64,000 nucleotides of DNA from Hyphomicrobium sp. CS1BSMeth3 (GTDB taxonomy: Bacteria; Pseudomonadota; Alphaproteobacteria; Rhizobiales; Hyphomicrobiaceae), in assembly GCF_900117415.1 (NCBI RefSeq), contig NZ_FPEI01000006.1, positions 1,860,001-1,924,000 on the forward strand, in the 5' to 3' direction. Both the position numbers and the translations under genes were made by a program. Below the pieces are notes generated by a model. It was not told where the DNA came from. It did no database searches and worked only from the letters and a program-made list of their open reading frames with translations. Below are positions 28,705-60,191 of this stretch, piece by piece; within the stretch, counting starts at the first letter, position 1; each line of letters opens with the position of its first letter.

Positions 28705-28740
28705 TCGCGCCTTCAGGTTGGCGCCAGCCGCGAGCACATC

Positions 28741-28862
28741 ACAATCCCCTCTCCCCGCTCTTGCGGGGAGAGGGTTAGGGTGAGGGGCGGCGGCATACGC
28801 CGACGTCGCATGTGTCGCCGCCCCTCATCCCGGCCTTCTCCCCGTGAGAACGGGGAGAAGGA
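28741..28862. repeat. Two REP-like palindromes
   Basis: Copy 3 (28744-28790) reads CCCTCTCCCCGCTCTTGCGGGGAGAGGG and then TTAGGGTGAGGGGCGGC. Copy 4 (28823-28862) reads CCCCTCATCCCGGCCTTCTCCCC-GTGAGAAC-GGGGAGAAGG in the opposite sense. They lie head to head between the FAD oxidase and hupE and belong to the same family as 7556-7792. Confidence 0.65.
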
Positions 28863-28953
28863 GCAGCAAACCTCCGCGCAAAGCGGCTTGATCCGCGGCC
28901 GCCCGCGCGGGCATGATGGCGCTCACGGCATACTGGCCCCAGACCATCCGAGG

Positions 28954-42581: not shown

Positions 42582-42624
42582 AGGGCTCACTTTGATGCCG
42601 CTCGGTGCGCTCTGCGACTCCGCT

Positions 42625-42696
42625 AGTGTGATGATCGAGAAATTCGCCAGATCGTTCGGCACGGTAGGGAGCGAATTTCTCGATCTGAATCACACT
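42625..42696. repeat. Long palindromic element R1 (first of a pair)
   Basis: Outer arms AGTGTGAT/ATCACACT, inner arms GATCGAGAAATTCGC/GCGAATTTCTCGATC (15 bp perfect), and a 23-base loop. Only 15 bp separate it from R2. See the finding on the palindrome family. Confidence 0.85.
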
Positions 42697-42711
42697 TGCA
42701 AGTCTATGATT

Positions 42712-42789
42712 CTAGTGTCCCTTTTGATTCCGAAGTTCGCTCGGGACGCCAGCATCGAGGTCAAGCGAACTTCGGAATCGGGACACTAG
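42712..42789. repeat. Long palindromic element R2 (second of the pair)
   Basis: Outer arms CTAGTGTCCC/GGGACACTAG, inner arms GATTCCGAAGTTCGCT/AGCGAACTTCGGAATC, loop 22 bases. Its right end overlaps the TAG stop codon of ntrX (42786-42788 on the minus strand). Confidence 0.85.
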
Positions 42790-44165
42790 GAAGCGCGCTG
42801 CTCCGACCCGACGCCCAGTGCGCGCAGCTTGCGGTGCAGCGCCGAGCGCTCCATGCCGACGAACTCCGCCGTGCGCGAGATATTGCCGCCAAAGCGGTTG
42901 ATCTGCGCGAGCAGATACTCACGCTCGAAGATCTCGCGCGCCTCGCGGAGCGGCAGCGACATCAGGTGCTCGGCACCGCCGTTCACCGGCAGCGGCACGT
43001 TCGAGCCGATCTCCTCGGGCAGCATGTCGGCCGTGATCACCGTGCCGGGATCACCGCCCGCAAGGATCATCAGGCGCTCGATGTTGTTCCTGAGCTCGCG
43101 CACATTGCCCGGCCAGTCGTGCGCCTGGAGAACGGCGACGGCATCGTCGCCGATGCGGCGCGGCGAAAGACCCGAGGCGGTCGCCACCTGCTGGACAAAG
43201 TACTCGATGAGCGACGGAATATCATCGCGCCGCTCGGCTAGGCTCGGCACCCGCAGCGGCACCACATTGAGGCGGTGATAGAGGTCGTTGCGGAAACGCT
43301 CCTCCTGCATTTCCCGCTCGAGATCGCGGCTCGTCGAGGAAATGATCCTCACGTCCACGGCCACCTTGGGTCCGCCGCCAATGCGCTGGAACTTCTGCTC
43401 GACGAGAACGCGGAGCACCTTGCCCTGCGTCTCGAGCGGCATGTCCGCCACCTCGTCAATATAGAGCGTGCCGCCGTGCGCCTCCTCGAGCGCACCAACC
43501 TTGCGCGGACCCGAGCGGTCCTCCGTGCCGAAGAGCTCTTCCTCGACGCGATCCGGCGCCATGGCGGCGGCATTGAGCACGACGAAGGGGCCATCAGCGC
43601 GGCTCGACTTCGCGTGGATCACACGCGCGGCCAGCTCCTTGCCGGAGCCCGAAGCACCGCGGATGAGTATGCGGCTGTTGGTCGGCGCGACGCGCTCGAT
43701 CTGATTGCGGAGCTGGTTGATCGCGGCCGACTTGCCGACCATCTCCGAGCTCTGCACGGAGCGCTCGCGCAGCGTCTTGACCTCGCGACGGAGCTGCGAG
43801 GCTTCGAGCGCGCGCAGCGTGACGAGAACGAGCCTGTCAGCCTTGAACGGCTTCTCGATATAGTCGTAGGCGCCGCGCCGGATGGCCGTCACCGCGGTTT
43901 CGATATTGCCGTGCCCCGAGATGATGACAACGGGCAGGTCGGGATGCTGCTTCTTGATGGCCGAGAGCATCTCGAGACCGTCGAGGCGGCTTCCCTGCAG
44001 CCAGATGTCCAGAATGATGAGATGGGGGCGGCGCTCCTCGATGGCCTTCAGTCCCTCGTCGGCATCGCGCGCCATGCGGGTACTGTGGCCCTCGTCCTCC
44101 AGGATGCCCGAGACGAGCTCACGGATATCCGCCTCGTCATCGACGATCAGAATGTCGGCTGCCAT
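42786..44165 (-). CDS. ntrX: Nitrogen-regulation response regulator NtrX
   Basis: A 459-residue response regulator. The receiver domain has Asp53 (LIILDIWLQ), followed by an AAA+ domain (Walker A GASGSGKE, near residue 170) and a Fis-type HTH (NISRTAEFVGMERSALHRKLR) at the C-terminus. The GAFTGA loop needed to contact sigma-54 is not present in the expected place (GTEDRSGPRKVGALEEAHGG), as usual for NtrX. It receives phosphate from NtrY, whose gene is 25 bp upstream. ATG 44165 is the start. Confidence 0.94.
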   Translation of the reverse strand: MAADILIVDDEADIRELVSGILEDEGHSTRMARDADEGLKAIEERRPHLIILDIWLQGSRLDGLEMLSAIKKQHPDLPVVIISGHGNIETAVTAIRRGAYDYIEKPFKADRLVLVTLRALEASQLRREVKTLRERSVQSSEMVGKSAAINQLRNQIERVAPTNSRILIRGASGSGKELAARVIHAKSSRADGPFVVLNAAAMAPDRVEEELFGTEDRSGPRKVGALEEAHGGTLYIDEVADMPLETQGKVLRVLVEQKFQRIGGGPKVAVDVRIISSTSRDLEREMQEERFRNDLYHRLNVVPLRVPSLAERRDDIPSLIEYFVQQVATASGLSPRRIGDDAVAVLQAHDWPGNVRELRNNIERLMILAGGDPGTVITADMLPEEIGSNVPLPVNGGAEHLMSLPLREAREIFEREYLLAQINRFGGNISRTAEFVGMERSALHRKLRALGVGSEQRAS

Positions 44166-44190
44166 CGGTTCTTCCCTCGAACTCAGTTGG

Positions 44191-46506
44191 TCATGCGGTT
44201 TGGCGCTGGCGCAGCTCTTTGGGCTGCTCCGTCGCCGCGGTCTGATGGTCTGTACCGGCCGTCGGCCGGCCGAGTGGTAGCGTGATGGAGATGCGCGCGC
44301 CACCCTGCACGCCGTCGGGCGCGGCAGGTGCGTCATCGAGGACGAGCGCGCCCCCGTGCTGCTCCACGATCTTCTGCACGATCGCGAGACCGAGGCCCGT
44401 GCCCTTTCGGCCTTTGGTCGTCACGTAGGGCTCGAGCAGTCGCGAACGGTTCTGCTTCGGCAAGCCGGGGCCGTTGTCGATGACTTCAATGGTCACGCGC
44501 TCGTCATTTTTGCTCACGATGGCGCGCACGCGACCGCGGAAACCTTCCGGTGCATCAGGCGCCTCGGCGCGCGTCTGCACAGCCTCGGTTGCATTCTTGA
44601 CGAGGTTGGTCAGCGCCTGCGCGAGCAGCCGCCCGTCGCACGGGATGACGACCGCCTCGGACGGCAGGTCCATCTCGTAGGCGATGCCGGGATGGGACTC
44701 GCGATACTGGATCATCGGCTCCTGCACGACCTCGCGAATGTCCTGGGGCGCGAACGTGGGCTGCGGCACGCGCGCGAACGCGGCGAACTCGTCGACCATC
44801 GTCTTGATGTCCCCGACCTGGCGGACAATCGTGTCCGTCAGCTTGTCGAAGGTCTCGCGATCCTCGTGAATGACGCGGCCATACTTGCGGCGAATGCGCT
44901 CGGCCGAAAGCTGGATCGGCGTCAGCGGATTCTTGATCTCGTGGGCAATGCGGCGAGCGACATCGCCCCAGGCGGACGTGCGCTGCGCGGCAATGAGCTC
45001 GGTGATGTCGTCGAACGTCACGACACTGCCCTGGTCGCTGCCCTCGGCCTGCGCCTTCTCCTTGGTCATCTGGACGGCGAAGACGCGCTCCTCATCGCCG
45101 ACCATCATGGAGACTTGGCCGTGCGCACGCCCCTTGCTGTGCGCCTGCTCGGCCGCCTCCGTGCAGTGCGATCCAAGGGCCGGGATCGCCTCGGCGATCG
45201 GACGGCCAAGAAGGTCGTCGGCCTTGATGCCGAGAAGACGCTCGGCAGAAGGGTTGGCAATGCGGATTATTCCCGCCGCATCGAGACCGATCACGCCTGC
45301 ACTGACGCCCGAGAGCATGGCCTCCATGAAGCGGCGGCGCTCGTCGAGAGCACTACGCTGACGATGAAGCTCACGCGTCATCAGGTTGAAGTCGTTCGAG
45401 AGGCGCCGCAGATCGCCTTCGCCGCGATAGAGCGGCAGCTCCACGCTCAGATCACCCGTCGCGACCTGCTGCGCGGCGCGGATCAGGCGGCGGATCGGCG
45501 CCACGAGTTGGCTCGCAAACCAGAGGCCCACCCAGATCGCCGCCAGGACGCCGGTCAGCGACAGCATGAAGTACATGAGGCCGTGCACGAGCTTGAGACC
45601 GCCGCGCGCCTGCAGCAGCCGCTCGTACTCGGCAACGCCGGCCTCCGTGCGCGTGAGATGCCCGACGACGCGCGGATTTACGCGGCGGGCAACATAGAGA
45701 TAGTGGCCGGGATAACGTGTAAGCTTGGCAACGGCGGCAATGCGATAGCTGTCCCTCGGCAGCAGCAGCGGGACGTGACCAGCCTCGGCCTGCGTGATGA
45801 CATCCGATCCTGGCGGCTCGTAGGCGATGCCACCGTTCATGGCCGTCGAGAAGACCACGTTCCCCTTGGCATCGATCACGGAGACGAGCGTCAGGTCGCG
45901 CAAGCCCGCCTGAGCCAGCACGAGATTGCGCCAGGCCTGATCATTACCGGGATCCGTCGTGCCGGGCGGGGTCGCATCGTCGAGGTCCTTCGCCATGTTG
46001 ACGATGTCGGTCCGAATGACCTGGCCATGCTCGGCGACGTAGGCGTGGGCGACGTCCAGCGAGTTGGCGACGATCGTCCGCGTGCGCGAGGCAAACCAGT
46101 TGTCCAGCGAGCGCGAGAAGGTGGTCGTCGCAGCAAGCGCCAGCAGCAGCGCCGGCAGCGCCGAGATCAGCGTGAACAGCAAGACGATCCGGATGTGCAC
46201 CCGCGCGCCCGGGAGCCGCGAGCGCCAGGCGCGCCACAGGCCATAAGCCTGAGCGCCGATCACGGCCAGCATGGCGATGATCAGCACCACGTTGACCATC
46301 AGCACCAGCAGCACGACGTCATTGCGCGGGGCGATGGGCGTCAGCCCGGTCAGGATGAGGTAGGTCGCGAAACCCGAGACGAGCGAGAGGACGACGATCG
46401 CGAGGCCAAACCAGAAGGCGCGCGGGCTCGATCCCGGCAAACCCGATTCGGGTACGCCGGAAAGCAACGAACGTCGGTTGGTTGTGTCCTGTGTGCCCAT
46501 ACTCAC
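44191..46506 (-). CDS. ntrY: Nitrogen-regulation sensor kinase NtrY
   Basis: A 771-residue membrane sensor kinase. There are three N-terminal TM segments (about 30-50, 60-80, 100-125), a periplasmic domain, a further TM segment near residue 315-335, HAMP (about 340-390), PAS (about 400-500), HisKA with [19 protein letters not shown] and an HATPase domain with NKNATEAV-like N box and ETKGRKGTGLGLA. It partners with NtrX in control of nitrogen and, in other alphaproteobacteria, cell-envelope or oxygen responses. Confidence 0.94.
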   Translation of the reverse strand: MSMGTQDTTNRRSLLSGVPESGLPGSSPRAFWFGLAIVVLSLVSGFATYLILTGLTPIAPRNDVVLLVLMVNVVLIIAMLAVIGAQAYGLWRAWRSRLPGARVHIRIVLLFTLISALPALLLALAATTTFSRSLDNWFASRTRTIVANSLDVAHAYVAEHGQVIRTDIVNMAKDLDDATPPGTTDPGNDQAWRNLVLAQAGLRDLTLVSVIDAKGNVVFSTAMNGGIAYEPPGSDVITQAEAGHVPLLLPRDSYRIAAVAKLTRYPGHYLYVARRVNPRVVGHLTRTEAGVAEYERLLQARGGLKLVHGLMYFMLSLTGVLAAIWVGLWFASQLVAPIRRLIRAAQQVATGDLSVELPLYRGEGDLRRLSNDFNLMTRELHRQRSALDERRRFMEAMLSGVSAGVIGLDAAGIIRIANPSAERLLGIKADDLLGRPIAEAIPALGSHCTEAAEQAHSKGRAHGQVSMMVGDEERVFAVQMTKEKAQAEGSDQGSVVTFDDITELIAAQRTSAWGDVARRIAHEIKNPLTPIQLSAERIRRKYGRVIHEDRETFDKLTDTIVRQVGDIKTMVDEFAAFARVPQPTFAPQDIREVVQEPMIQYRESHPGIAYEMDLPSEAVVIPCDGRLLAQALTNLVKNATEAVQTRAEAPDAPEGFRGRVRAIVSKNDERVTIEVIDNGPGLPKQNRSRLLEPYVTTKGRKGTGLGLAIVQKIVEQHGGALVLDDAPAAPDGVQGGARISITLPLGRPTAGTDHQTAATEQPKELRQRQTA

Positions 46507-46874
46507 TTCACTTCCGGCCGGCGCCGCGGATCGTCATAAGGACGTGTGTCCGCCTCGAGCGGCGGCGCGGCAACGGCTTCCGGAGCGATCCTCCGCAGGC
46601 CCCGATTGCGTCTCGAAAGCCCTCAATTATCTTCCGACTTCAGGCAGTTGGATCGGGTTAGCAGCTGCAGCGTGATATCCGTTCCCGCGCAGATGATGCC
46701 GCCCGAGCACCTTCGCTCGATGTCGCGCCAGCCAATATGACACAAACTGTGTCTTTCTGGCGACAAGGCCGGTCACACCTTTATGTGACCGGCCGCACTG
46801 CCCGTTTCTGTGGATAGGAGGTGGACGGCGCCGCACGCCTGAAGCAGGGGCGTGCTGCAACGTCGGATCGACGA
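46507..46874. other. ntrC-ntrY intergenic region (368 bp)
   Basis: No gene is seen here. It should hold the ntrYX promoter, which is usually separate from ntrBC. It contains the hairpin at 46767-46794 and the short palindrome GACACA-AAC-TGTGTC at 46739-46753, possibly an operator. Confidence 0.5.
46767..46794 (-). terminator. Strong hairpin downstream of ntrC
   Basis: An 11-bp perfect stem GGCCGGTCACA/TGTGACCGGCC with a six-base loop, then TTGTC on the minus strand. Likely a terminator or attenuating hairpin after ntrC. Confidence 0.55.
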
Positions 46875-48326
46875 TCAGGCCTGGGGTCCCTTGAAGACCT
46901 GGATGTCGAGGCTCTGGATCTTCTCGCGCAGCGTATTGCGATTGAGACCGAGGAGTTCCGCGGCCCTGATCTGGTTGCCGCGCGTCGCTGCAAGGGCGGC
47001 CGTGATCAGCGGCATCTCGACTTGGCGCAAAATGCGCCGATAGAGCCCCGGAGGCGGGAGGTCCTTCCCGAAGCCGGCGAAATGGCGGGCCAGATAGCCC
47101 TCGACCAACTCGGAAAGAGCGCGCGACGTATCCGACGCCGCATCGGGCTCGTGCGCCGCCGGCGACAGCTCGGCAAGCTCGCCATCGACGATCTCCGCGC
47201 TGATGGTGTCCTGCGAGTAGAGCGCAGCCAGGCGGCGGACGAGGTTCTCGAGCTCGCGCACGTTCCCCGGCCAGGAATGCTTGCGCAGTCGATCGAGGGC
47301 GCCGGGCGCCAGCGTTTTTTGGCCAAGACCTTCGCGTGCTGCAATGCGCAGGAAGTGGCGCGCAAGATCGCCGATGTCCTCGGCCCGCTCGCGCAAGGGC
47401 GGCAGACGAACAGGCACGACATTGAGGCGGTAGTAGAGATCCTCGCGGAAAGCGCCCTGCTGGATCTGCTGACGGAGGTCGCGGTGCGTCGCTGCAATGA
47501 TCCGCACGTTGGTCTTGATCGGCGTGCGCCCGCCAACCGTCGTGTACTCACCCTCCTGGAGCACGCGCAGCAATCGCGTCTGCGCCTCGAGCGGCATGTC
47601 GCCGATCTCGTCGAGGAAGAGCGTGCCGCCTTCGGCCTGCTCGAAGCGGCCCTGCGTGCGCACCTGCGCGCCCGTGAAGGCTCCCTTCTCGTGACCGAAG
47701 AGCTCGCTCTCGATGAGCTCGCGCGGGATCGCCGCCATGTTGATCGCAACGAACGGCCCAGCGCGGCGCTTGGAAAAGTCGTGGAGCACGCGCGCGACGA
47801 GCTCCTTGCCCGTGCCGGACTCGCCGGTGATCATCACCGTGAGATCGGTCTGCGTGAGACGCGCAATGACCCGGTAGATCTCCTGCATGGCGGCCGAGCG
47901 ACCGATGAGCGGGAGCTCCTCGTTGTCGCCGTCCGTGCTGCGCTCGCGCTTTCGGCCGGGCTCGGAGAGCGCACGCCCTACGACGCCGACGAGCTCGGAG
48001 AGATCGAATGGCTTCGGCAGATACTCGTAGGCGCCCTTCTCGGCCGCAGTGATCGCCGTCATCAGCGTGTTCTGCGCGCTCATGACGATGACCGGCAGCT
48101 CGGGCCGCGCCTTCTTGATCCGTGGGATGAGGTCGAAGGCGCTCTCATCGGGCATGATCACGTCGGTGATGACGACATCGCCCTCGCCCTGCGAGACCCA
48201 GCGCCACAGCGTCGCCGCGTTGCCGGTTGCGCGTGGCGAGTAGCCGGCCCGCGCCAGTGCCTGATTGAGCACCGTGCGAATGGCCGCATCGTCGTCAGCA
48301 ATGAGGATGGTTCCGCGTGCCATCAT
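46875..48326 (-). CDS. ntrC: Nitrogen-regulation response regulator NtrC
   Basis: A 483-residue sigma-54 activator (482 if it starts at the second ATG, 48323). The receiver has Asp54 ([10 protein letters not shown], counting from MARGTIL), the AAA+ domain has GESGTGKE and [11 protein letters not shown] (the sigma-54-contacting GAFTGA loop) and a Fis-type HTH ([21 protein letters not shown]). It activates glnA, amt and other nitrogen genes in response to NtrB. The start overlaps the ntrB stop (ATGATGA-type coupling). Confidence 0.95.
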
Positions 48327-49480
48327 AAGCCTCTCTTGGTCGGGTCGCCCGCGCGTTCCTGCATGGGCAGGAGTACGCGGAAGACAGTCTTGCGGGGCTC
48401 GCTGTCGCACTCGATGATGCCGCCGTGATCGCCGACGATCTTGGCGACCAGCGCGAGGCCGAGACCGGTGCCGGTCCGCTTGGTAGTGACGAAGGGATCG
48501 AAGAGATGCGAGCGGACGGCCTCGGCGATGCCAGGGCCGTTGTCCTCGATCTCGATCATGAGCGGCAGCGCGACGCGCGCCTGCGAGCCCGGGACCGAGA
48601 GGCGCACGCCAGGCCGGAAGGCCGTGGTGAGGATGATGCGCCCGCCGTCGCGAGTCTCGCCAAGCGCTTCGGCAGCGTTCTTGACGAGATTGAGGAAGGC
48701 CTGGACGAGCTTGTCGCGATTGCCGGGAATGGGCGGCAGCGAGGGATCGTACTGCTCCTGAATGCGGATGCCACGGGCAAAGCCGCTCTCGGCGATGCGC
48801 TTCACGTGATCCAGCACGTCGTGGATGTTGACCGGCTCGGTCGCGAGCGGCCGCTCGTCGCCGAACACCTCCATGCGATCGACGAGATTGCGGATGCGAT
48901 CGGTCTCGGAGCAGATGAGGCGTGCGAGCGCGCGGTCCTCATCAGACAGCGAGGGCTCGAGGAGCTGGGCCGCGCCGCGAATGCCGGAAAGCGGGTTCTT
49001 GATCTCGTGCGCGAGCACCGCGGCGAGACCCGACACCGAGCGCGCCGCCGCGCGATGCGTGAGCTGACGCTCGATCATCTGCGCCATCGAGCGCTGCTGG
49101 AGCATCAGCAGGACGAGGTCGGGCGCGTCGGGAAGCGGGCCGCCATAGATGTCGACGAGACGGGGCGCCTGCACCTTCGGCGTCGAGATCAGAACGCCGT
49201 ATTCGTTGACCGTCGAGCCGGTGCGCGCGACCTGGCGCGCGAGGGAGATGAGGGGGCAGTCGTCGCTGACGATCGAGCCGATCTGCTGGCGCTTCAGGAC
49301 GGCCTGGCTCGACTGGAAGAACGTCTCGGCCGCGACATTGGCGTAGATGACGCGTTCGTCGGCTGCGAGCACGATGATCGGGTGGGGAAGGGCGCCAACG
49401 AGCACATCGTGCTCGATATGGCGTCGTGTCGTAATTGGCGGCAACGGCGGCACCCGATCGGCCGTGCTCTCCGTGCTCAT
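48323..49480 (-). CDS. ntrB: Nitrogen-regulation sensor kinase NtrB
   Basis: A 385-residue soluble histidine kinase. It has an N-terminal PAS domain (about 25-135), HisKA with His158 in [19 protein letters not shown], and an HATPase domain with [10 protein letters not shown] (N box) and [15 protein letters not shown]. It phosphorylates NtrC under nitrogen limitation, controlled by PII. It overlaps the dusB gene by 4 bp (ATGA), consistent with the nifR3-ntrBC operon of alphaproteobacteria. The start is ATG 49480. Confidence 0.95.
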
Positions 49481-50553
49481 GCTGCGGCCCCCTCGAGTTG
49501 CGGAACCGACGCATAGAAATGCGCCAGTCCCGCGAGCAGTCGTGCGGGATCGGTCTCCGTGCACAGGCGTTGGCGGTTCGCCTTGACGACGGCGGGCGGT
49601 GCACCGCTCGTCTCGAGGTACCAGCCAATATGCTTGCGAGCGTTCCTCAGCCCGAGGAACGCGCCGTAATGGCTGAGCATCGCCTCGACGTGACCGAGGG
49701 CGATCGCGCACTGCGCCGCGAGCGCCGGCGGCCCCGGGTCGTTGCCGGTTGTGAGGAAGGTGTTGACGCGCGCAGGCAGCCACGGTGCGCCATAAGCGCC
49801 GCGCCCGATCATCACGCCATCGGCCCCCGAAGCAGCAAGCGCAGCCTGGGCATCCTCCGGCGTGCAGATGTCGCCGTTCACGATAACTGGGATCCCCACC
49901 GCCTCCTTCACGCGGCGGACGAAGTGCCAGTCGGCGTTGTCCTTGAAGAACTGGCAGCGCGTGCGGCCATGCACCGTGACGAGCGCAATGCCCGCTGCTT
50001 CGGCGCGCCGCGCGAGCTCGGGGGCATTGAGGTTCGCATGATCCCAGCCCATGCGCATCTTCAAGGTCACGGGAACGCGGACAGCACCGATCGTTTCATC
50101 GATCAATCCAATGGCGTGATCAAGATCACGCATCAACGCGCTGCCGGAGAGCTTGCCGGTCACCTCACGTGCGGGGCAGCCCATGTTGAGGTCGATGATG
50201 TCGGCGCCCAGGCCCTCGGCAATGCGCGCGCCCTCAGCCATCCAGCGCGCCTCGCGTCCGGCAAGCTGCATGACGAATGGGCGCTCGCCGGCAAACGCTG
50301 TTCGCCGCAGAACGTCGGGGCGCTCGCGTACGAGCTCCTCGCTCGCGACCATCTCCGAGACGACATACTCCGCGCCACAATGTTGCGCGGCCTGCCGGAA
50401 GGGCAGATCGGACACCCCCGACATCGGCGCGAGGAGAACGCGTCCGGCAACAATGGTCGAGCCAATTGCCAATTCAGGCGTGCGTCCAGACGAAGGGGCG
50501 CTCCCCCCGCCTGCCTGCCCGCCCCGATTGCTGTCCGGCCTTCCGTTCATCAC
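49477..50553 (-). CDS. dusB: tRNA-dihydrouridine synthase (DusB/NifR3)
   Basis: A 358-residue FMN TIM-barrel that reduces uridine in tRNA D-loops. The proton-donor Cys is Cys126 in [20 protein letters not shown], and the start of the barrel is [16 protein letters not shown] Gly/Pro/Ser-rich N-terminal extension (about 1-25) precedes it. It is the first gene of the ntr operon, and its overlap with ntrB indicates translational coupling. It is divergent from ispDF, with the paired palindromes R3 and R4 between them. Confidence 0.94.
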
Positions 50554-50697
50554 CTGCCCTATTTTTGAGCAACGTTACACCGTGCCCAATAATTATTCAA
50601 ACTAGAGAAGGACGACGGCCTTCGCAAGTGCGAAATTGCAGTGCAGCGTGTGGCCCTTGCGCAGGACCTGGGCTGGTCCTATGAGCATTTGCACGAG

Positions 50698-50766
50698 AGC
50701 GTCGGACCTCGAATCCGACCTGCAGTTCGGGTTGGGCCCAAGTCGCATCCGAGGTCCAAAGACGCT
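50698..50766. repeat. Long palindromic element R3 (first of a pair)
   Basis: Outer arms AGCGTC/GACGCT, inner arms GGACCTCGAATCCGAC/GTCGCATCCGAGGTCC (imperfect), loop 22 bases. It is the reverse-oriented relative of R7. Confidence 0.8.
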
Positions 50767-50784
50767 TTAGATTTAATGGGTTCT

Positions 50785-50855
50785 AAAGCAGCGGGGACTT
50801 GAAATTCGCTCCCCGCCCGGCATCAAGGTGAGGCGAATTTCAAGTCCGTTGCTTT
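50785..50855. repeat. Long palindromic element R4 (second of the pair)
   Basis: Outer arms AAAGCAGCGG/CCGTTGCTTT, inner arms GGACTTGAAATTCGC/GCGAATTTCAAGTCC (15 bp perfect), loop 23 bases. R4 is in the opposite orientation to R5 and R6. Confidence 0.87.
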
Positions 50856-50930
50856 CGCATTGGATTTGGTTACTTTTTGCCGGCGCGCGCATTTTCATCG
50901 ACGCTCGCCCGCTTCCCGGGGGCAGGGGCC

Positions 50931-52112
50931 GTGTCAACCATAGCCATTATCGTCGCCGCCGGACGCGGCAGCCGGGCCGGCTCGGCCACCATCCCGAAGC
51001 AGTACGCGGACCTCGGCGGCGTGCCGATGCTCACGCGGACGCTCGAGGCCTTTGCCGGCCATCCGAGCATCGATCACGTGATGGCGGTCATCCACCCCAA
51101 TGACATGCTTCGTTATCAGGCCGCCGCACAGCGCGTCTCCGGCAAGCTGCTGCCCCCGGCAATCGGCGGCGCGAGCCGGCAGATTTCCGTCCACAATGGC
51201 CTCGAAGCGCTGCTCAGCCACAATCCGTCGCGCGTGCTGATCCACGATGCGGCACGGCCATTCGTTACGCCCGCGCTGATCGACCGCGTGATCGCGGCGC
51301 TCGCGACCTCACCGGGCGCGCTGCCGGCGCTTCCTGTTCCCGATACCCTCAAGCGCGCCGATGCAGCAGGAAATGTCGCCGGCACTGTCGACCGGAACGG
51401 CCTCTGGCGCGCCGAGACTCCCCAGGGCTTCCGCTATCCTGAAATCCTGGCCGCCCACAGGGCGGCGGAGGCGTCAGGACGCAATGAATTCACCGACGAT
51501 TCGAGTCTCGCGGAATGGCACGGCGTGACTTGCGCCCTGGTCAATGGCGAGGCACGCAACATCAAGATCACGAGCGCGGAGGATCTCGCCTTGGCCCAGC
51601 AGTCGTTCGGCCGCGCCGCCCCGAGCATCACGGACGTGCGCCACGGCACCGGCTTCGATGTGCACCGCTTCGGTGCCGGCGATCATGTCTGGCTCTGCGG
51701 GGTATCGATCCCGCACACGCACGCGCTCGACGGCCACTCGGATGCCGACGTCGGCCTTCACGCACTCACCGATGCCCTCTTCGGCGCCATCGGCGACGGC
51801 GACATCGGCCAGCACTTCCCGCCGAGCGACATGCGCTGGAAGGGCGCGCGCTCGGAGATCTTTCTCGCAGAAGCCGTGCGTCGCGTGACGGCCGCCGGCT
51901 ATACGATCGGCAACGTCGATGTGACGATCATCTGCGAAGCGCCACGCGTCGGGCCGCACCGTGATGCCATGCGCCGCGAGATTGCGCGCATTATCGGCAT
52001 CGACGTTGGCCGCGTCGGCGTGAAAGCGACCACCACGGAAACGCTTGGCTTCACAGGGCGGCGCGAAGGCATTGCCGCAATGGCAAGCGCAACGCTCATC
52101 CGGCGCGGATGA
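50931..52112 (+). CDS. ispDF: Bifunctional MEP cytidylyltransferase / MECDP synthase
   Basis: A 393-residue fusion for two steps of the MEP isoprenoid pathway. The IspD half (about 1-230) begins TIAIIVAAGRGSRAG and has the CTP-binding Lys in PKQYADLGG. The IspF half (from about 235) begins GTGFDVHRFG and has GHSDADVGLHALTDALFGA, with the metal-binding Asp/His. Fused ispDF is typical of alphaproteobacteria. Start GTG 50931 is chosen; TTG 50877 in frame is less likely. The gene supplies precursors to the polyprenyl synthase encoded elsewhere in the window. Confidence 0.95.
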   Translation: MSTIAIIVAAGRGSRAGSATIPKQYADLGGVPMLTRTLEAFAGHPSIDHVMAVIHPNDMLRYQAAAQRVSGKLLPPAIGGASRQISVHNGLEALLSHNPSRVLIHDAARPFVTPALIDRVIAALATSPGALPALPVPDTLKRADAAGNVAGTVDRNGLWRAETPQGFRYPEILAAHRAAEASGRNEFTDDSSLAEWHGVTCALVNGEARNIKITSAEDLALAQQSFGRAAPSITDVRHGTGFDVHRFGAGDHVWLCGVSIPHTHALDGHSDADVGLHALTDALFGAIGDGDIGQHFPPSDMRWKGARSEIFLAEAVRRVTAAGYTIGNVDVTIICEAPRVGPHRDAMRREIARIIGIDVGRVGVKATTTETLGFTGRREGIAAMASATLIRRG

Positions 52113-52159
52113 CACGAGTTCGCGCCCGCTGCGCGAGCAGAGCCGCAATCGACAGCGCT

Positions 52160-52230
52160 AAAGCGTCCTTGGACTTGAAATTCGCCTCACCTCGATGCGG
52201 GGCGGGAGCGAATTTCAAGTTCGTTGCTTC
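52160..52230. repeat. Long palindromic element R5 (single)
   Basis: Outer arms AAAGCG/GTTGCTT, inner arms GGACTTGAAATTCGC/GCGAATTTCAAGTTC, loop 22 bases whose sequence is the near-reverse complement of the R4 loop. Its end runs into the stop codon of the PagL-like gene. Confidence 0.85.
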
Positions 52231-52804
52231 AGTTGAACCTGTAGCCGACGCGCACGCCGGCGCTGGTGATGCCGCTGTTGTGGTCGCAGAGGTTCGCGTT
52301 CGACATGTGGGCGATCATGCCATAGACCGTCCAGGCGTCATTGAGCGCATATCCGACCGAGAACGACTCGCGGAAGTTCACCGAGCAACCGTAAAGGTCC
52401 GGCGCGGCGCCGTGGGTCGGCCCGTCGTGCCAAGCGCCGCCAAAGGACGCTTCGAGCGAAATTCTTTGAGTGATCTTCAGATCCCAGGTCAGCCCAACGT
52501 AGATTTGGCTGGTGTCTCCGATCGTGTTGATCGCGGCGCCAGCATGCACGCGGGGCCTGAGGAAGAAATTCGCCAAGGCATCACGATAGGAGATGCTCGG
52601 CCGGCGGAAGAGCACTTCCACGTTGATGTCCGCGCCGCCTTCTGACTGACCACTTTCGATGCTATGGGCAAGAACGCCCAGCCGCACTTCATCGAGCAGT
52701 GATTGAGCTTTCGCGTCAGACGTAACCACAGAAATGCCGACCGCTGCTGCGGCAGCAATCGCAAGCTTCCTGGTCAAATGCCCGGCCCGCCTCATAGCGC
52801 GCAT
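52229..52804 (-). CDS. PagL-like lipid A 3-O-deacylase (acyloxyacyl hydrolase family)
   Basis: A 191-residue outer-membrane beta-barrel. A signal peptide (about 1-33) is followed by alternating beta-strand type sequence ending in an aromatic/Phe-Asn C-terminus (RVGYRFN). The family motif is seen as YGMIAHMSNAN (His166, Ser168), with NFRESFSVGY upstream. PagL removes the 3-O acyl chain from lipid A. It lies next to a multi-PAS sensor kinase, but no regulatory link is shown. Confidence 0.82.
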   Translation of the reverse strand: MRAMRRAGHLTRKLAIAAAAAVGISVVTSDAKAQSLLDEVRLGVLAHSIESGQSEGGADINVEVLFRRPSISYRDALANFFLRPRVHAGAAINTIGDTSQIYVGLTWDLKITQRISLEASFGGAWHDGPTHGAAPDLYGCSVNFRESFSVGYALNDAWTVYGMIAHMSNANLCDHNSGITSAGVRVGYRFN

Positions 52805-52936
52805 CCCGCATCATCTGTGTGTTTATCATTACACTGTTCGATTGCGAACGCACGACACTTGACGAATCGGACACGAAACTAGCACGGCGTGTTGCATCGC
52901 GATCACGCTCGTGGACGAGTTGTACGCAGCTTTGCT

Positions 52937-55336
52937 TCACTTCACGGATGCGTCTGCCGTTTTCTCGGCCGCCTGATGCATCGGCAGCTCGATAATGAAC
53001 GTCGCTCCAATGCCCGGCTGGCCGTCGGCATCGATCGACCCGCCATGACGCTCGACGATCTTGCGAACCGTGGCGAGGCCCACGCCAGTGCCTTCGTATT
53101 CGAGGCGTCCGTGCAGGCGCTGGAAGATCGTGAAGATCTGCTCCTTGTATTTATTGTCGAAGCCGATGCCGTTGTCCCGGATTTCGATGCGCAAGTGCGG
53201 AGAGCGGTGGCCGGGACCTGAGCGGTCGGCGTCAGTCGAGCACGTGATATCGATCTCGGGCTTCACATCGGCTTTGCGGAACTTGAGCGCGTTCGCGAGC
53301 ACGTTCTGAAGCAACTGGCGCATCTGCGTTGCATCCGCGTCGACCGCAGGCAGCACCTCCGACTTGATAACGGCGCCGGTCTCCTCGATGCGGATCTGGA
53401 GGTCGGAGAGCACGCCGCTCAACACCTCGCCGAGCTCCACTCGCGTGAACGGTTTTGCCTTCGTGGTCACGCGTGAGTAGTCGAGCAGGTCGTTGATGAG
53501 GCGCCGCATCCTGCCGGCAGCATTCTGCATCCGGTCGAGGAACATCCTTCCGTCATCGGGGAGATCCTTGCCGAAGCGCGTGACGAGGCGGTCGCCGAAA
53601 GCCTCGATCTTGCGCAGCGGCTCCTGCAGATCGTGCGACGCCACGTAGGCGAAATCCTGAAGCTCGCGGTTCGATCGCTCGAGCTTCTGCGTATAGTCGC
53701 GCATCTGCTCGGCGTGCCGCTCGCTGTCGGACACGTCCATGCAGGTGGCGATCGTCCCGCCGTCCGGCATCGGCTCGCTGACGACCGCGATCACGCGCCC
53801 ATCGCGCAAATGCTGCTTGAAGGTGCGGCGCGTCTTCTGATGGCGGGTCTCGTGCCGCTCCTTCAGAACGCGGTGCGCCTCTTCCTCAGTGTAGTTGCCG
53901 ACGCTGGCGCTGTGCATCATGACATCGCCCAGCGCGACGCCCGGCTTCACCACGTCCGGCGACAGGCAGTACATTTCGAGATAGCGGCGATTGCAGATGA
54001 TCAAGCGCTGCTCCGCATCGTACATGGCGACACCCTGCACCATGTTGTGCATGACGGCGTCGAGCTGCATGTGCTGGGCGGCGAAGCGCGCATTCAGCTT
54101 CTCGCGTTGCGTGATGTCTTCATGCGTGCTGACGAGGCTGCCGTCCGGCATGGGGAGCCGCAGGACGGCAATGGAGCGCCCATCGGCCAATCTCAGGACC
54201 GTAGAAACTTTCTCCCTGAAGGTGGCGACGCCATCCTCCACGAATCGCTGACCATCGATGCTTCCGTAAACGCCGGTTGCGACGCGGGCCTCCAGAATAG
54301 CCTTCAAGCTGGTGCCGGGCTTGATGTGCTCCGGCGCCAGGCCATAGATCTCTGCGTAGCGGCGATTGGCGAAAACGACATTCTGGTCGGCATCGAACAG
54401 GCACAGACCCTGGGACATGTTGTCCAGGAGAATGTCGAACATCTTGTTCCGCGAATGCAGTTCGCGAGTGACACGGACGAGGTCGGCCTCGCGCTGCTTG
54501 AGATGCGTGATATCGGAGCGCGTCTGCACGTTCTCGCCACGAGAGGTGCGCATCTCGTTGACCAGGTGCCAGCGGCCGTCGGCAAGGCGGACCTCGGTGG
54601 GAATGCCAAGCCTACGATGGTGCTTGAGGGCAGCGGCGAGATAGGTCTCGGCCGTGTGGCCCCTCATGTCAAAGCCGCCGCGGCGAATCTCCTCCGCGAG
54701 CAGAGCCTCGTAGGACGCACCGCGCACGATGAGCTCGCCGATGAGCGACCGGCACTCCACGTACTTGCGATTGAAGACGACGAGCTTCTCGTCGGCATCG
54801 AAGAGCGCGAAGCCCTCCGCCATGACGTCGAGCGCGTGGGTCATGCGCTGGCGCGCGTTCGCGGCAATCTGGGCAAACTGCACGTTGAGGTCCGTCACGG
54901 TCGCCGACGGCTCCACTTCGCGGACGGTCTCGATGAGCGTGCCGCTTTCGAGGCACGAGCGGTGCACCTCGACGAGCTTGGCATTCGGGGCGACGTAGCG
55001 CAGCGCGTCGTGCGAACCCGGGGCAATGCCGTCCATGACGGCCTTCATGCGGTCCGCGATCTGCTCGTCCGAGAGTTCCTGCCGCTCGAGGACGCGGCGC
55101 ACGAGATCGACGAATCGGGCACCGATCACGACCTCCTCCGGCGTATGGCCGCGGAGCACGCGATAGGTATCATTGCAGGCGATGAGGCGCAGTTCCTTGT
55201 CGAACATCGCAAGGCCAACGCTCGCGCCCGCGAGCAGCGCTCCAGTGCCCTCTACGGGCCCGGCGCCAGCGACACCGTGATCATGGCTCGGCACTTCCAC
55301 CCCTGACAGTGCCAAAGCGCCAGACAGAACGGTCAT
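52937..55336 (-). CDS. Multi-PAS soluble sensor histidine kinase
   Basis: A 799-residue kinase without TM segments. Four or five PAS-type domains occupy about residues 25-560; three of them show the repeated pattern MFDKELRLIACNDTY, LFDADEKLVVFNRKY and LFDADQNVVFANRRY. The HisKA domain has DFAYVASHDLQEPLRKIEAFG with the phospho-His, and an HATPase domain follows (DNGIGFDNKYKEQIF, YEGTGVGLATV). A response regulator gene is not adjacent, so the partner is unknown. The start is set at 55336 by the first in-frame ATG. Confidence 0.9.
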   Translation of the reverse strand: MTVLSGALALSGVEVPSHDHGVAGAGPVEGTGALLAGASVGLAMFDKELRLIACNDTYRVLRGHTPEEVVIGARFVDLVRRVLERQELSDEQIADRMKAVMDGIAPGSHDALRYVAPNAKLVEVHRSCLESGTLIETVREVEPSATVTDLNVQFAQIAANARQRMTHALDVMAEGFALFDADEKLVVFNRKYVECRSLIGELIVRGASYEALLAEEIRRGGFDMRGHTAETYLAAALKHHRRLGIPTEVRLADGRWHLVNEMRTSRGENVQTRSDITHLKQREADLVRVTRELHSRNKMFDILLDNMSQGLCLFDADQNVVFANRRYAEIYGLAPEHIKPGTSLKAILEARVATGVYGSIDGQRFVEDGVATFREKVSTVLRLADGRSIAVLRLPMPDGSLVSTHEDITQREKLNARFAAQHMQLDAVMHNMVQGVAMYDAEQRLIICNRRYLEMYCLSPDVVKPGVALGDVMMHSASVGNYTEEEAHRVLKERHETRHQKTRRTFKQHLRDGRVIAVVSEPMPDGGTIATCMDVSDSERHAEQMRDYTQKLERSNRELQDFAYVASHDLQEPLRKIEAFGDRLVTRFGKDLPDDGRMFLDRMQNAAGRMRRLINDLLDYSRVTTKAKPFTRVELGEVLSGVLSDLQIRIEETGAVIKSEVLPAVDADATQMRQLLQNVLANALKFRKADVKPEIDITCSTDADRSGPGHRSPHLRIEIRDNGIGFDNKYKEQIFTIFQRLHGRLEYEGTGVGLATVRKIVERHGGSIDADGQPGIGATFIIELPMHQAAEKTADASVK

Positions 55337-55582
55337 CCCACGTTCCTCGATTTACCCCCGGAGATCCTGAGGCCGATCAATGGCACATGGCCATTTAAGA
55401 ACTGCTAAGCGAACTTGCCGGGGGAGCCATCATCGGCTGGCCATCACGCAACACGCCCGTAACATCATGATTTTAAATAATAAATATCCGAGCGCCGCGA
55501 CCGACAGATTGGCTTTGCGGCAGACCGACGATCAGACCGGTGATGTCGGAAAGGCCGGGCAGGCGACGCCGAACCTCTGGCC

Positions 55583-56317
55583 TCAGACAAGTCCGAGACT
55601 GCGTGCCGTCCTCCCGCGCCAGCCTTCGGCCTCGAAGCTCGCGACGAGCACCTGGGGGTCATAGACGGCGTCCAGCCACTCCCCGAACGGGATCGGCGTT
55701 CGGGCATGGTGCTCGAGGTACGTCTCGAAGAGGTGATCGAGGATGCCGGTCTTGGTGAGGCTCACATGGCCGTAACGCAGGGATAGTTGGTGCCGCGCCT
55801 CATCGACGGGCACGCCCTCGCGAAAAATGAGATAGAGCGCGCAGAAGAGGCCTGTGCGGTCGGATCCGGACTTGCAGTGAATGAGCGTCGGGCCGTCGAT
55901 CTCCGCAATCAAGGTCCGCATGGTGGCAATGTCATTGCGCGTCGGGGCCGCACGCGACCTCAGGCGGAGGTTGATCAGATCGAGCCCCAGCCGCGCGCAG
56001 GTCTCCTGCTCGAGCCAAAACCCGCCGTGCTCTTCCTCGCCGCGCAGATTGATGACCTTGCGAACACCGCGCCCTGCCGCCGCCCGCAAATGGCGCGGCG
56101 CCGGCTGTGCCGAACGCCAAATACCCTCGGCGACCTGGTGAACGTTGCAATAGACTTCGCGGACCACGCCGTAGTCGATCAGCCAGAGATCGAGATGGTG
56201 CACCGCCGGACCGAACCGGTTCACCAGCCACCGTGGCAGGGTGGCAGCCGTCTGGGCCTGCCACGCACGCGCGGCTTTGCGAAGGCGCCGCCGTTGTTGT
56301 CCCGCCAGCTTTCCCAT
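55583..56317 (-). CDS. Tyrosine/dual-specificity protein phosphatase
   Basis: About 244 residues from the ATG at 56317 (MGKLAGQQRR); an ATG at 56359 would add 14. The catalytic P-loop is HCKSGSDRTGLFCALYLI, matching C-X5-R with Cys at residue 148 from the shorter start. The general-acid Asp is probably in the region upstream of it. No signal or TM is present. Phosphatases of this type resemble DSP/PTP of bacteria and act on proteins or phosphoinositides. It lies next to the multi-PAS kinase gene on the same strand. Confidence 0.82.
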   Translation of the reverse strand: MGKLAGQQRRRLRKAARAWQAQTAATLPRWLVNRFGPAVHHLDLWLIDYGVVREVYCNVHQVAEGIWRSAQPAPRHLRAAAGRGVRKVINLRGEEEHGGFWLEQETCARLGLDLINLRLRSRAAPTRNDIATMRTLIAEIDGPTLIHCKSGSDRTGLFCALYLIFREGVPVDEARHQLSLRYGHVSLTKTGILDHLFETYLEHHARTPIPFGEWLDAVYDPQVLVASFEAEGWRGRTARSLGLV

Positions 56318-56806
56318 AGGGCGATCGTGACCAGTTCTATTGCCATGCACCGGGGGCAAAGGCGCGCCACTCGAAACCCAGGCACGCGCCAGCTTTTCCG
56401 CAACCCGGCTTCCCCCACCCCTTGGCGAACGTCATTATCGCCTGTATCGATGACAAGCAAATGCGGTTGCGGTCGCACGGCTGTCGGCGCCGCACGAGGC
56501 TAACCGCGGGGACCGCCGAGCGCGGCGATATGGCACCGGACGGGCGCGCCAATTTAGGTCTAAAGGGACCAACTGCGTCAGAACGACGCCCCGTCCACGG
56601 CGTTGCCGGAGCGGTGGCGTCTGGTCTGCAGCACGATCGATCTGCGCCAGCCGGAAACGTGTTTGGCTGCACCTCGTACTTGGAGAGTCTCGTTTGCAGG
56701 CCGAAGTTCCAACCGGAACACAGAGCGGACTTCCACATGCGGGCACGCTCATCGTCCATGTCGTCGCGCGTCTCGCATTCTTGGCGGTGCTAGGGAGCGT
56801 GGCGGC
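56318..56806. other. Divergent intergenic stretch (about 490 bp)
   Basis: Between the phosphatase and waaA. Frames here are not convincing genes. No strong palindrome, tRNA or repeat is visible. It holds the promoters for both flanking genes. Confidence 0.4.
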
Positions 56807-58117
56807 ATGAGCAGCCGGGCCGCAATCAGCGAACGTCATTCCCTCCCCTTGGGCCTGCACGCCTATCGCGCCGTGATGTCGCTCGCCCGGCCGGCACTCT
56901 GGCTGCTCCTGCGCCGCCGGGCCGAACGCGGCAAGGAGGATCAGGCGCGTCGAGCCGAGCGTTACGGGATCGCCGGCCTTGCGCGCCCCGACGGCGATCT
57001 CCTTTGGCTGCACGCGGCGAGCGTCGGCGAGACCAATGCCGTACTTCCCCTGATCGAGCGCCTGCTCGCCGCCCGCAAGAGCCTCACCATTCTTCTCACC
57101 ACCGGCACGGTGACCTCTGCCGGTCTCGCGGCGAAGCGTTTGCCGGCACGCGCACTGCACCAATATCTCCCCCTCGACTCCGTGCCGTACGTGCGGCGGT
57201 TTCTCGATCACTGGCGGCCGACGGTCGCCGTGCTGACCGAGCAGGAGATCTGGCCGAACCTCATTCTCGAAGCTCACGCGCGCGGCATACGCCTCGCCCT
57301 CATCAACGCCCGCATGTCCGGGCGCAGCCTTGCGCGCTGGCAGGGCAAGCCGAATGTCGCCAAGGCCCTCTTCGGCCGTCTCGATGCCGTCCTCGCCCAG
57401 AATGAGCAGCTCGCCGGTGCGCTGGCCTCGCTCGGTGCCATGAATGCGGCGGCTGTCGGCAATCTCAAGCTCGACGCCCCGCTCCTCCCCGTCGACGCGG
57501 CAGCGGCAAAGGCGCTCAGCGAGGGCCTCGCAGGCAGGCCACGCTTTCTTGCCGCCAGCACACACCCCGGCGAAGAGGCCGTCATCGCCGACGCCCACCG
57601 CATTATGCGGTCGACCTTGCCCGATCTCTGCACGATCATCGCACCACGCCATCCGCACCGCGGCCCTCAGATCGCCGCCGATCTCTCCGCCGCCGGTCAT
57701 GTGGTTTCTGTTCGCTCGCGCGGCGAGCTGCCTCGATCCGATGTCGGCATCTACATCGCCGATACGATCGGCGAGCTCGGCACGCTTTATTCCGTCGCTC
57801 GCACTGCATTCATCGGCGGCTCGCTCGTGGAGCGGGGTGGCCAGAACCCGATTGAAGCTGCGCGTCTCGGCGCGAGCGTGCTCGTCGGCCCCTCGCGTTC
57901 GAGCTTCCTCGACATCTACGAGCCGCTGCTCGCGGCCGGCGGCGCAGTCGAAGTCGGCAACAGCGAGGACGTCGCGCACCAAGTGCTCGCATGGATCAAG
58001 GATCCGGCGAGCCGCGATGCCGTCGCGGCCACCGCGACGTCGACTCTCGATCGTCTCTCGGGCGGCCTCGAGCGAACCACCCAGGCCATCATCGCCATGC
58101 TGAATCAACGGACTTGA
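56807..58117 (+). CDS. waaA: 3-deoxy-D-manno-octulosonic acid (Kdo) transferase
   Basis: A 436-residue GT-B glycosyltransferase that adds Kdo to lipid IVA in the inner membrane. It has an N-terminal hydrophobic segment, LWLHAASVGETNAVLPLIERLL, TEQEIWPNLILEA and a C-terminal GGSLVERGGQNPIEAARLGASV, the Kdo-transferase signature. The start is at ATG 56807; the frame is open upstream but without homology. The stop codon (58115-58117) lies inside palindrome R6, so the last residues are encoded by the repeat. Confidence 0.93.
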   Translation: MSSRAAISERHSLPLGLHAYRAVMSLARPALWLLLRRRAERGKEDQARRAERYGIAGLARPDGDLLWLHAASVGETNAVLPLIERLLAARKSLTILLTTGTVTSAGLAAKRLPARALHQYLPLDSVPYVRRFLDHWRPTVAVLTEQEIWPNLILEAHARGIRLALINARMSGRSLARWQGKPNVAKALFGRLDAVLAQNEQLAGALASLGAMNAAAVGNLKLDAPLLPVDAAAAKALSEGLAGRPRFLAASTHPGEEAVIADAHRIMRSTLPDLCTIIAPRHPHRGPQIAADLSAAGHVVSVRSRGELPRSDVGIYIADTIGELGTLYSVARTAFIGGSLVERGGQNPIEAARLGASVLVGPSRSSFLDIYEPLLAAGGAVEVGNSEDVAHQVLAWIKDPASRDAVAATATSTLDRLSGGLERTTQAIIAMLNQRT

Positions 58118-58166
58118 AATTCGCCTCACCTTGAGGCGGGGCCGGGAGCGAATTTCAAGTCCGTTG
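58106..58166. repeat. Long palindromic element R6 (first of a pair)
   Basis: CAACGGACTTGAAATTCGC and GCGAATTTCAAGTCCGTTG (19-bp perfect arms) with a 23-base loop. It overlaps the waaA stop codon. Confidence 0.9.
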
Positions 58167-58183
58167 CTCTAGAGCCATTGCGT

Positions 58184-58261
58184 CTAAAGCGTCTTCGGAC
58201 CTCGAATGCGACTTCGAGCCCGACCCGAACCGCGGGTTGCATTCGAGGTTCGATGCTTTAG
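58184..58261. repeat. Long palindromic element R7 (second of the pair)
   Basis: Outer arms CTAAAGCGTC/GATGCTTTAG, inner arms GGACCTCGAATGCGAC/GTTGCATTCGAGGTTC, loop about 23 bases, related to R3. It begins 17 bp after R6. Confidence 0.87.
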
Positions 58262-60101: not shown

Positions 60102-60191
60102 GGAGAGGTGGCAGAGTGGTCGATCGCGCCGCACTCGAAATGCGGAGTACGGGCAACCGTACCGGGGGTTCGAATCCCTCCCTCTCCGCCA
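60102..60191 (+). tRNA. tRNA-Ser (CGA anticodon)
   Basis: A 90-base tRNA with a long variable arm, as expected for Ser. Acceptor GGAGAGG/CCTCTCC (60102-60108 and 60181-60187), discriminator G, then a coded CCA (60189-60191). The anticodon loop CTCGAAA sits between CCGCA and TGCGG. The T arm has GGTTCGAATCC. It borders the phage-like region, so its 3' end is a likely integration site. Confidence 0.95.

Follow-up and report, generated by a model that had tools for sequence, protein, structure and literature searches.

The 64-kb stretch of the genome of Hyphomicrobium sp. CS1BSMeth3 analysed here (contig NZ_FPEI01000006.1, positions 1,860,001 to 1,924,000; hereafter the window) contains seven long palindromes, R1 to R7, and raises the question of what kind of sequence keeps its pairing while its letters change from copy to copy. 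A preliminary description of the window had presented them as one family with divergent but self-complementary arms. All seven were present, the inner arms were as quoted there, and each inner arm paired with its own partner. Six of the seven stood in pairs (R1-R2, R3-R4 and R6-R7) and R5 was solitary, also as described, and the relative orientations of R4, R5 and R6 and the loop core common to R2, R4, R5 and R6, GCATC(A/G)AGGT, were confirmed. The palindromes were found to form two sequence families rather than one, A (R1-R2) and B (R3-R4, R6-R7 and the lone R5), and the spacers within pairs measured 11-13 nt from tip to tip instead of 15-18 bp. The pattern GAAATTCGC..GCGAATTTC had 4 matches in the window and 0 in 100 shuffles. 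The A and B elements are mobile, and they are probably non-autonomous mobile DNA elements moved in trans by an enzyme that would recognise their fold and insert them at CTAG-like sites.

Structure of the A and B elements

The A and B elements were about 160-168 bp long and each consisted of two hairpins facing each other. A hairpin read, in order, a 10-bp outer arm with a CTA..TAG tip, an inner arm of 14-16 bp, a loop, the second inner arm, extra bases and the second outer arm; the extra bases, usually 3-4 per hairpin, were unpaired on the inward strand, and a spacer of mostly 11-14 nt was followed by the mirror image. The extra bases faced the spacer in 21 of 22 CS1BSMeth3 pairs and in 94 of 95 pairs in other genomes, and the CS1BSMeth3 exception is, we think, a nested insertion that puts the second hairpin of B next to that of A. 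The bulge of the first A hairpin (A1) was 3 nt long in 117 of 125 hairpins and missing in 6, and that of the second (A2) was 4 nt long in 92 of 115, 3 nt in 17, 5 nt in 5 and missing in 1. The loops carried the motif GC-N-(G/T)-C at one offset in 86 of 125 A1 and 62 of 115 A2 hairpins. In the 45 distinct A rows of the CS1BSMeth3 sequence examined, the left tip was CTAG in 32, CTCG in 10 and another sequence in three, and the right tip was CTAG in 38, a variant occurring once each in six, and unreadable in one; B elements had the tips CTAA/TTAG.

The inverted hairpin pair is the usual unit. A census of A hairpins, in which overlapping loci were counted more than once, gave 198 adjacent pairs and 35 solitary hits, 17 of the solitary hits listed being B inner hairpins. 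A search for the layout (10-bp outer arm, one-sided bulge of 1-5 nt, inner arm, loop of 19-27) produced 49 hits in 623 kb of CS1BSMeth3 sequence, two of them unrelated hairpins, compared with 0 in an equally large Markov-simulated set. About 160 kb of the CS1BSMeth3 sequence had been picked for containing elements, and 400 kb of unselected sequence yielded two A pairs. At its thresholds the search reported R1-R4 and missed R5-R7. The other genomes gave 244 hits, about 230 of them A-type. Two pairs in genome G007 (L052:2006-2173 and L063:736-904) kept the layout with unrelated arms, and loci L103 and L089 held diverged two-hairpin pairs.

A few A1 hairpins without the TGA bulge paired perfectly, for example L051 in CS1BSMeth3 and L102, L119 (WBUE) and L144 (G006). 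Another G006 locus (L163:4204-4286) contained a solitary chimeric hairpin whose arms come from different halves of an A element, the product that a deletion from one loop to the other would leave.

Copy number and distribution

The CS1BSMeth3 genome (G000) measures 6.02 Mb. The A query matched at least 41 places on the query strand, with the best 40 of 160 first-look candidates scored, and the B query at least 40 places, some of them partial. Confinement to the window, which had been named as a finding that would speak against a mobile family, was not seen: many copies were found across the genome and in relatives. Matches to the A query occurred in 12 genomes out of 30, CS1BSMeth3 among them, namely 12 of the 18 from the host family and 0 of the 12 from other families of the order. 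The carriers included G000-G004, G006, G007 and G009-G011, and G005, G008, G012 and G014-G016 had no match. The A1 hairpin pattern was found in at least 86 stretches of named genomes, and its carriers among the matches listed were Hyphomicrobium, Hyphomicrobiaceae, unplaced Rhizobiales/Hyphomicrobiales/Pseudomonadota metagenome-assembled genomes (MAGs) and one MAG titled Hyphomonadaceae (JAIEQJ). The median pairwise identity of A copies was 0.87 in G000, whereas G006 had a median of 0.70 and a 95th percentile of 0.98 over 62 rows, some of them mis-extracted; several G006 loops were identical, and we read G006 as showing a recent burst of A copies. No A or B match was found in the phage records or viral contigs searched, or in 72,556 plasmid records, pSymB of Sinorhizobium meliloti included. 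A literature search returned nothing on such repeats in Hyphomicrobium.

Empty sites and insertion junctions

Window positions 41-60 kb and the 20-kb CS1BSMeth3 loci L212-L214, together holding 17 elements, were compared with congeners G001, G003 and G004. For 13 of the 17 elements the alignment to a relative ran through the junction with no element in between (identity 65-89%); among the remaining four, one was represented by a right-end remnant in G004 (L042), one was a B nested in an A, and two had no match. Both G004 elements seen in the compared stretches, which are A elements, were missing in G000 and G003. G004 lacks the element at the R1-R2 site and reads CCGCTAGGATG there, where G000 reads CCG-[CTAG...CTAG]-GAAG and G003 contains a lone B2-type hairpin. 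G001, G003 and G004 all lacked the R3-R4 B element at the orthologous site, and R5 was missing in G004. The bases at the empty sites of the relatives were CTAG (R1-R2 site and L027/L134), CTCG (L125/L096), CTGG (L033/L236), CTTG (L025/L237) and CTGC (L142/L214), and less clear sites read GTTG, CGGA, CTGA or were unreadable.

One B element has inserted into an A element, at the CTAG closing the hairpin A1 of the latter (L213:14515-14842). In G007 (L063) one CTAG belongs both to an A element and to a pair whose arms are different, and in G011 (L075) one belongs to two A elements, near-alike copies for which tandem duplication may be the explanation. CTAG is rare in the 400-kb CS1BSMeth3 sample, at 0.475 per kb compared with about 3.2 expected from base composition, though it is both tip and insertion site.

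IS630-type miniature inverted-repeat transposable elements (MITEs) such as RUP and Correia are small and non-autonomous and have TA or CTAG at both ends, as A and B do, whereas A and B have two internal bulged hairpins. The A and B junctions can be written as C-TA-[body]-TA-G, as they would be if the elements were MITEs of an IS630/Tc1 or IS5/IS427 DDE transposon duplicating the TA in CTAG/YTAR. According to the available text on Brucella, IS711 duplicates the TA of YTAR and reportedly prefers the palindromic Bru-RS repeats, which are possible hot spots for it (PMC2266754). However, the DDE_3 domain (PF13358), sought in six genomes, occurred in G006 and G010 and had no match in G000, G002, G004 and G011 (the search did not extend to IS5/IS427 enzymes), and eight CS1BSMeth3 A copies had a CTCG left tip, a CTAG right tip and an inner CGAG, tips that misfit TA duplication and argue against plain duplication. 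On this evidence an origin as DDE-type MITEs is unlikely. The tip counts of the 45 A rows fit, short of proof, an element that carries its left tip along and acquires the right one from the target; a tree of the CS1BSMeth3 A copies gave no decision on whether the CTCG tips are inherited.

Conservation of pairing and gene context

The A1 alignment comprised 48 hairpins from several genera (46 of 53 selected rows, L077 and the window), the rows left out including L051, L102, L119 and L155, which are shorter and three of which have no TGA bulge, and L069, which has a deletion. The A2 alignment comprised 45 hairpins, 44 of them distinct (43 of 50 selected rows, L076 and the window). In A1, 97.0% of cells paired, with changes on both sides at 13 pairs (3.4 when shuffled) and in 41 cells (4.3 when shuffled), and registers slid out of place were 22-43% paired. 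In A2, 96.8% of cells paired, with changes on both sides at 12 pairs (2.7 when shuffled) and in 30 cells (3.1 when shuffled). The alignment rows are related, so the shuffle counts are not probabilities. Compensatory change in the arms, proposed as a test in the preliminary description, thus stood above both controls, shuffles and slid registers.

The mispaired cells of both A hairpins comprised 60 G.T and 55 A.C, namely 18 and 25 in A1 (122 hairpins) and 42 and 30 in A2 (112 hairpins), after exclusion of 3 of 125 A1 and 3 of 115 A2 hairpins in which fewer than 21 of the 25 positions paired. Within the alignments the counts were 13 and 17 in A1 and 19 and 17 in A2. Because G.T is not clearly commoner than A.C, the pairing looks kept as DNA, and the structured-RNA possibility raised at the outset is disfavoured, since a clearer preference for G.U would be expected of a function in RNA.

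The placement of the elements relative to genes was determined with a crude gene caller, elements less than 600 bp from a locus end being left out. CS1BSMeth3 A elements lay between genes in 33 of 43 cases (10 inside predicted genes), compared with 59 of 300 random positions in the same genome; the corresponding counts were 15 of 19 for CS1BSMeth3 B elements (3 inside, 1 unassigned) and 54 of 81 for the elements of other genomes (27 inside). In favour of a role in the transcript, with pairing maintained for termination or mRNA stabilisation, are very stable folds (with DNA parameters, z -9.7 for R1-R2 and z -6.1 for R7-R6), the slight G.T excess in A2 and the presence of 3 of 15 CS1BSMeth3 B elements between convergent genes, where B is not depleted. 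Such an RNA-level role is nevertheless quite improbable in view of the nearly equal G.T and A.C counts, the placement between convergent genes of 0 of 33 CS1BSMeth3 A elements and 4 of the 54 from other genomes versus 34 of 222 intergenic regions, the 7 terminator-like sites in the region versus 7.6 in shuffles, and the rapid turnover between congeners.

The A elements contained 3.1 GANTC sites each compared with 0.23 expected (44 copies), about 13 times commoner than in the 400-kb sample, and the B elements 0.8 (22 copies). A link of the A enrichment to the GANTC methylase CcrM is possible, and the available text on Caulobacter repeats reports GANTC in them as well (PMC2229807). That the elements are host chromosome sites, for CcrM or a nucleoid protein for example, repeated by chance is extremely improbable, given the 0.8 GANTC of B and positions that are not conserved between congeners.

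Search for a mobilising enzyme

Repetitive extragenic palindromic (REP) elements and their REP-associated tyrosine transposases (RAYT), which are Y1 HUH enzymes, are described in the consulted portions of two papers (PMC8266576; PMC3733652), and the first states that E. coli TnpA-REP requires a bulge in the stem (PMC8266576). REP elements, bacterial interspersed mosaic elements (BIME) and REP doublets forming hairpins (REPIN) follow the same logic as A and B, two inverted palindromes with a tag, often bulged and with a tetranucleotide at the foot. A and B differ in the tip, CTAG/CTAA versus GTAG/CGTC, in the much longer hairpins (about 75-79 nt) and in having no Y1 transposase in the genome. 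The RAYT/TnpA-like transposase suggested in the preliminary description did not appear, PF01797 being missing from CS1BSMeth3 and four congeners; in all, the Y1 HUH model had no match in G000, G001-G004, G006, G009, G010 and G011, nine genomes that all carry A, compared with matches in 4 of the 20 genomes searched and in 5 of 14 controls. Movement of A and B as REP or REPIN elements by a RAYT is therefore highly improbable. The likening to REP/BIME or MITE elements stands as far as it claimed a mobile family, which the many copies across the genome and in relatives, the covariation and the empty and nested sites uphold, and falls as regards classical REP/RAYT membership.

The only Y1 gene found in a genome in which the repeat was seen, an IS200-like gene of G007 with an in-frame TAG, directly abuts the tip of another two-hairpin element, whose arms are different (gene and element, L052:1450-2175). 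It was considered as a mobiliser and is read as a neighbour instead; two-hairpin tips are perhaps IS200 targets.

IS91-like Y2 HUH transposases (PF04986) had no match in G000, G001, G002 and G004 and one partial match in G003, with matches in 6 of 18 relatives and 0 of 14 controls, and none of the eight Y2 loci checked had such a hairpin. As far as the Pfam models reach, the three likely enzymes (Y1, Y2 and DDE_3) are excluded for CS1BSMeth3. The tip-pairing guide of IS200/IS605 elements (IS608-style) fitted L033, where the G003 and G004 sites are CTGG and the inner tip CCAG, and nine CS1BSMeth3 CTCG/CGAG copies; G006 did not fit, CTAG being kept in all 12 of its A rows in which the inner tip had changed and the right tip could be read (35 of 67 rows were unreadable).

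Weighing of the proposed mechanism

For non-autonomous elements moved in trans, the moving unit would be the pair of inverted, usually bulged hairpins. The enzyme would recognise the folded DNA, as a single strand or a cruciform, the probable cues being the CTA(G) tip, the loop and the inward bulge that lies 10 bp from the tip, and would insert the unit at CTAG-like (CTNG) sites, with one short stretch common to target and element. If the fold is what is recognised, the arms would be free to change while they pair.

Several observations weigh against this explanation. The bulge is not universal, the best pairing having none in 6 of 125 A1 hairpins and 1 of 115 A2 hairpins. No mobiliser was found among Y1, Y2 and DDE_3, and IS5/IS427, IS110, IS66 and others were not searched. 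The eight copies with CTCG at the left and CTAG at the right tell against a simple duplication of the site, and flank divergence blurs the junction at several empty sites, so that a 4-bp duplication, a TA duplication and a single element-borne tip are indistinguishable there. Some empty sites could be deletions, and G004 keeps a remnant at one. Pairing in A2 taken alone shows the slight G.T excess (42 and 30), and compensated arms could arise by template switching inside the palindrome, without selection.

The CTAG-like site, the inverted-pair unit, the DNA-level pairing, the near-identical G006 copies and the exclusion of three enzymes make the hunt for the enzyme concrete. A broader and more doubtful proposal is that the Hyphomicrobiaceae carry two-hairpin selfish DNAs moved by an enzyme of none of the REP, IS91 and IS630 types, which would read the bulged hairpin mainly by shape and insert at CTAG; the arms would have diversified (A, B and the two G007 types) with the shape fixed, and the two-armed repeats of rhizobia and Caulobacter might share the class.

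Relation to known two-armed repeats

A and B work like a REPIN or MITE and are built like the Caulobacter CcrM-associated intergenic repeats (CIR), and on the tests made they are members neither of REP/RAYT nor, by sequence, of the S. meliloti repeat. The CIR consist of two long inverted repeats and a linker, measure about 110 bp and carry GANTC, with no settled mobility mechanism in the part of the CIR account available (PMC2229807); the spread of two-armed intergenic repeats of alphaproteobacteria is unexplained, as stated there for CIR (PMC2229807). By description, A and B resemble CIR in the two inverted arms with a linker and the intergenic position, and they may do so in GANTC, of which A holds 3.1 per element and B 0.8; they differ in length (about 160-168 bp). 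The closest kin in build may be the Caulobacter CIR and, judged by eye only, a repeat of S. meliloti.

The latter, one pSymB copy inspected by eye (L258:30046-30162), has a CTAG left end, two hairpins and a short linker, and we take it to be RIME1, the record having no annotation there. Its right hairpin has an outer arm with 8 of 10 positions paired, a TTT inward bulge and an inner arm with 13 of 14 paired, and seven similar places, some partial, were found in 300 kb. The repeat differs from A and B in its length of about 117 bp, its 3-nt loop and a left hairpin that is built differently, and it had no BLAST match to either. The relaxed layout search gave this copy as its 1 hit in the 300 kb of pSymB, compared with 1 and 2 in simulated sequence, and the stricter search none, so the layout alone is no evidence of kinship and the likeness no more than a lead. 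Among the annotated S. meliloti repeats, the available text of PMC2573895 lists RIMEs and AB/C palindromes.

Features of the window

The positions of the hairpins and elements are given in Table 1.

Table 1. Hairpins R1-R7 and the elements they form, in window coordinates
Feature	Position	Strand	Description
R1, hairpin A1 of an A element	42623..42698	+	outer arm CTAGTGTGAT, inner GATCGAGAAATTCGC, loop, 3-nt inward bulge TGA
R2, hairpin A2 of the same A element as R1	42712..42789	+	outer arm CTAGTGTCCC, inward bulge TTTT, inner GATTCCGAAGTTCGC
R1-R2, complete A element, 167 bp	42623..42789	+	between hemH and ntrX
R3, hairpin B2 of a B element	50694..50770	+	left tip degenerate
R4, hairpin B1 of the same B element as R3	50783..50857	+	
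R3-R4, complete B element	50694..50857	+	between dusB and ispDF
R5, solitary B-type hairpin	52158..52232	-	directly after ispDF; tips read from sequence
R6, hairpin B1 of a B element	58100..58172	-	tips read from sequence
R7, hairpin B2 of the same B element as R6	58184..58261	-	tips read from sequence

The outer left arm of R5 matches the outer left arm of the other B hairpin. The 5' end of R6 (58100-58117) supplies the last codons and the TGA stop of a kdtA-like frame (56603-58117), and in G003 and G004 the kdtA-like frame has a C-terminal tail where CS1BSMeth3 has the codons from the B element. The genes around the elements, according to Pfam, were hemH, ntrX, ntrY, ntrC, an ntrB-like kinase, dusB, ispDF, a pagL-like, a kdtA-like and a DUF179/AlgH-like gene, the ntr names being an interpretation beyond the domain content. 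An Rfam scan of the window at the gathering score gave no match except a tRNA gene (60102-60188).

A third repeat family (CCCCTCACCCTAACCCTCTCCCC type), self-complementary and about 120-137 bp long, was observed in the window (28737-28871) and at L213:5560-5690. It had 10 near-full rows in the CS1BSMeth3 sequence examined, two places being counted on both strands, and was found at many places in G003.

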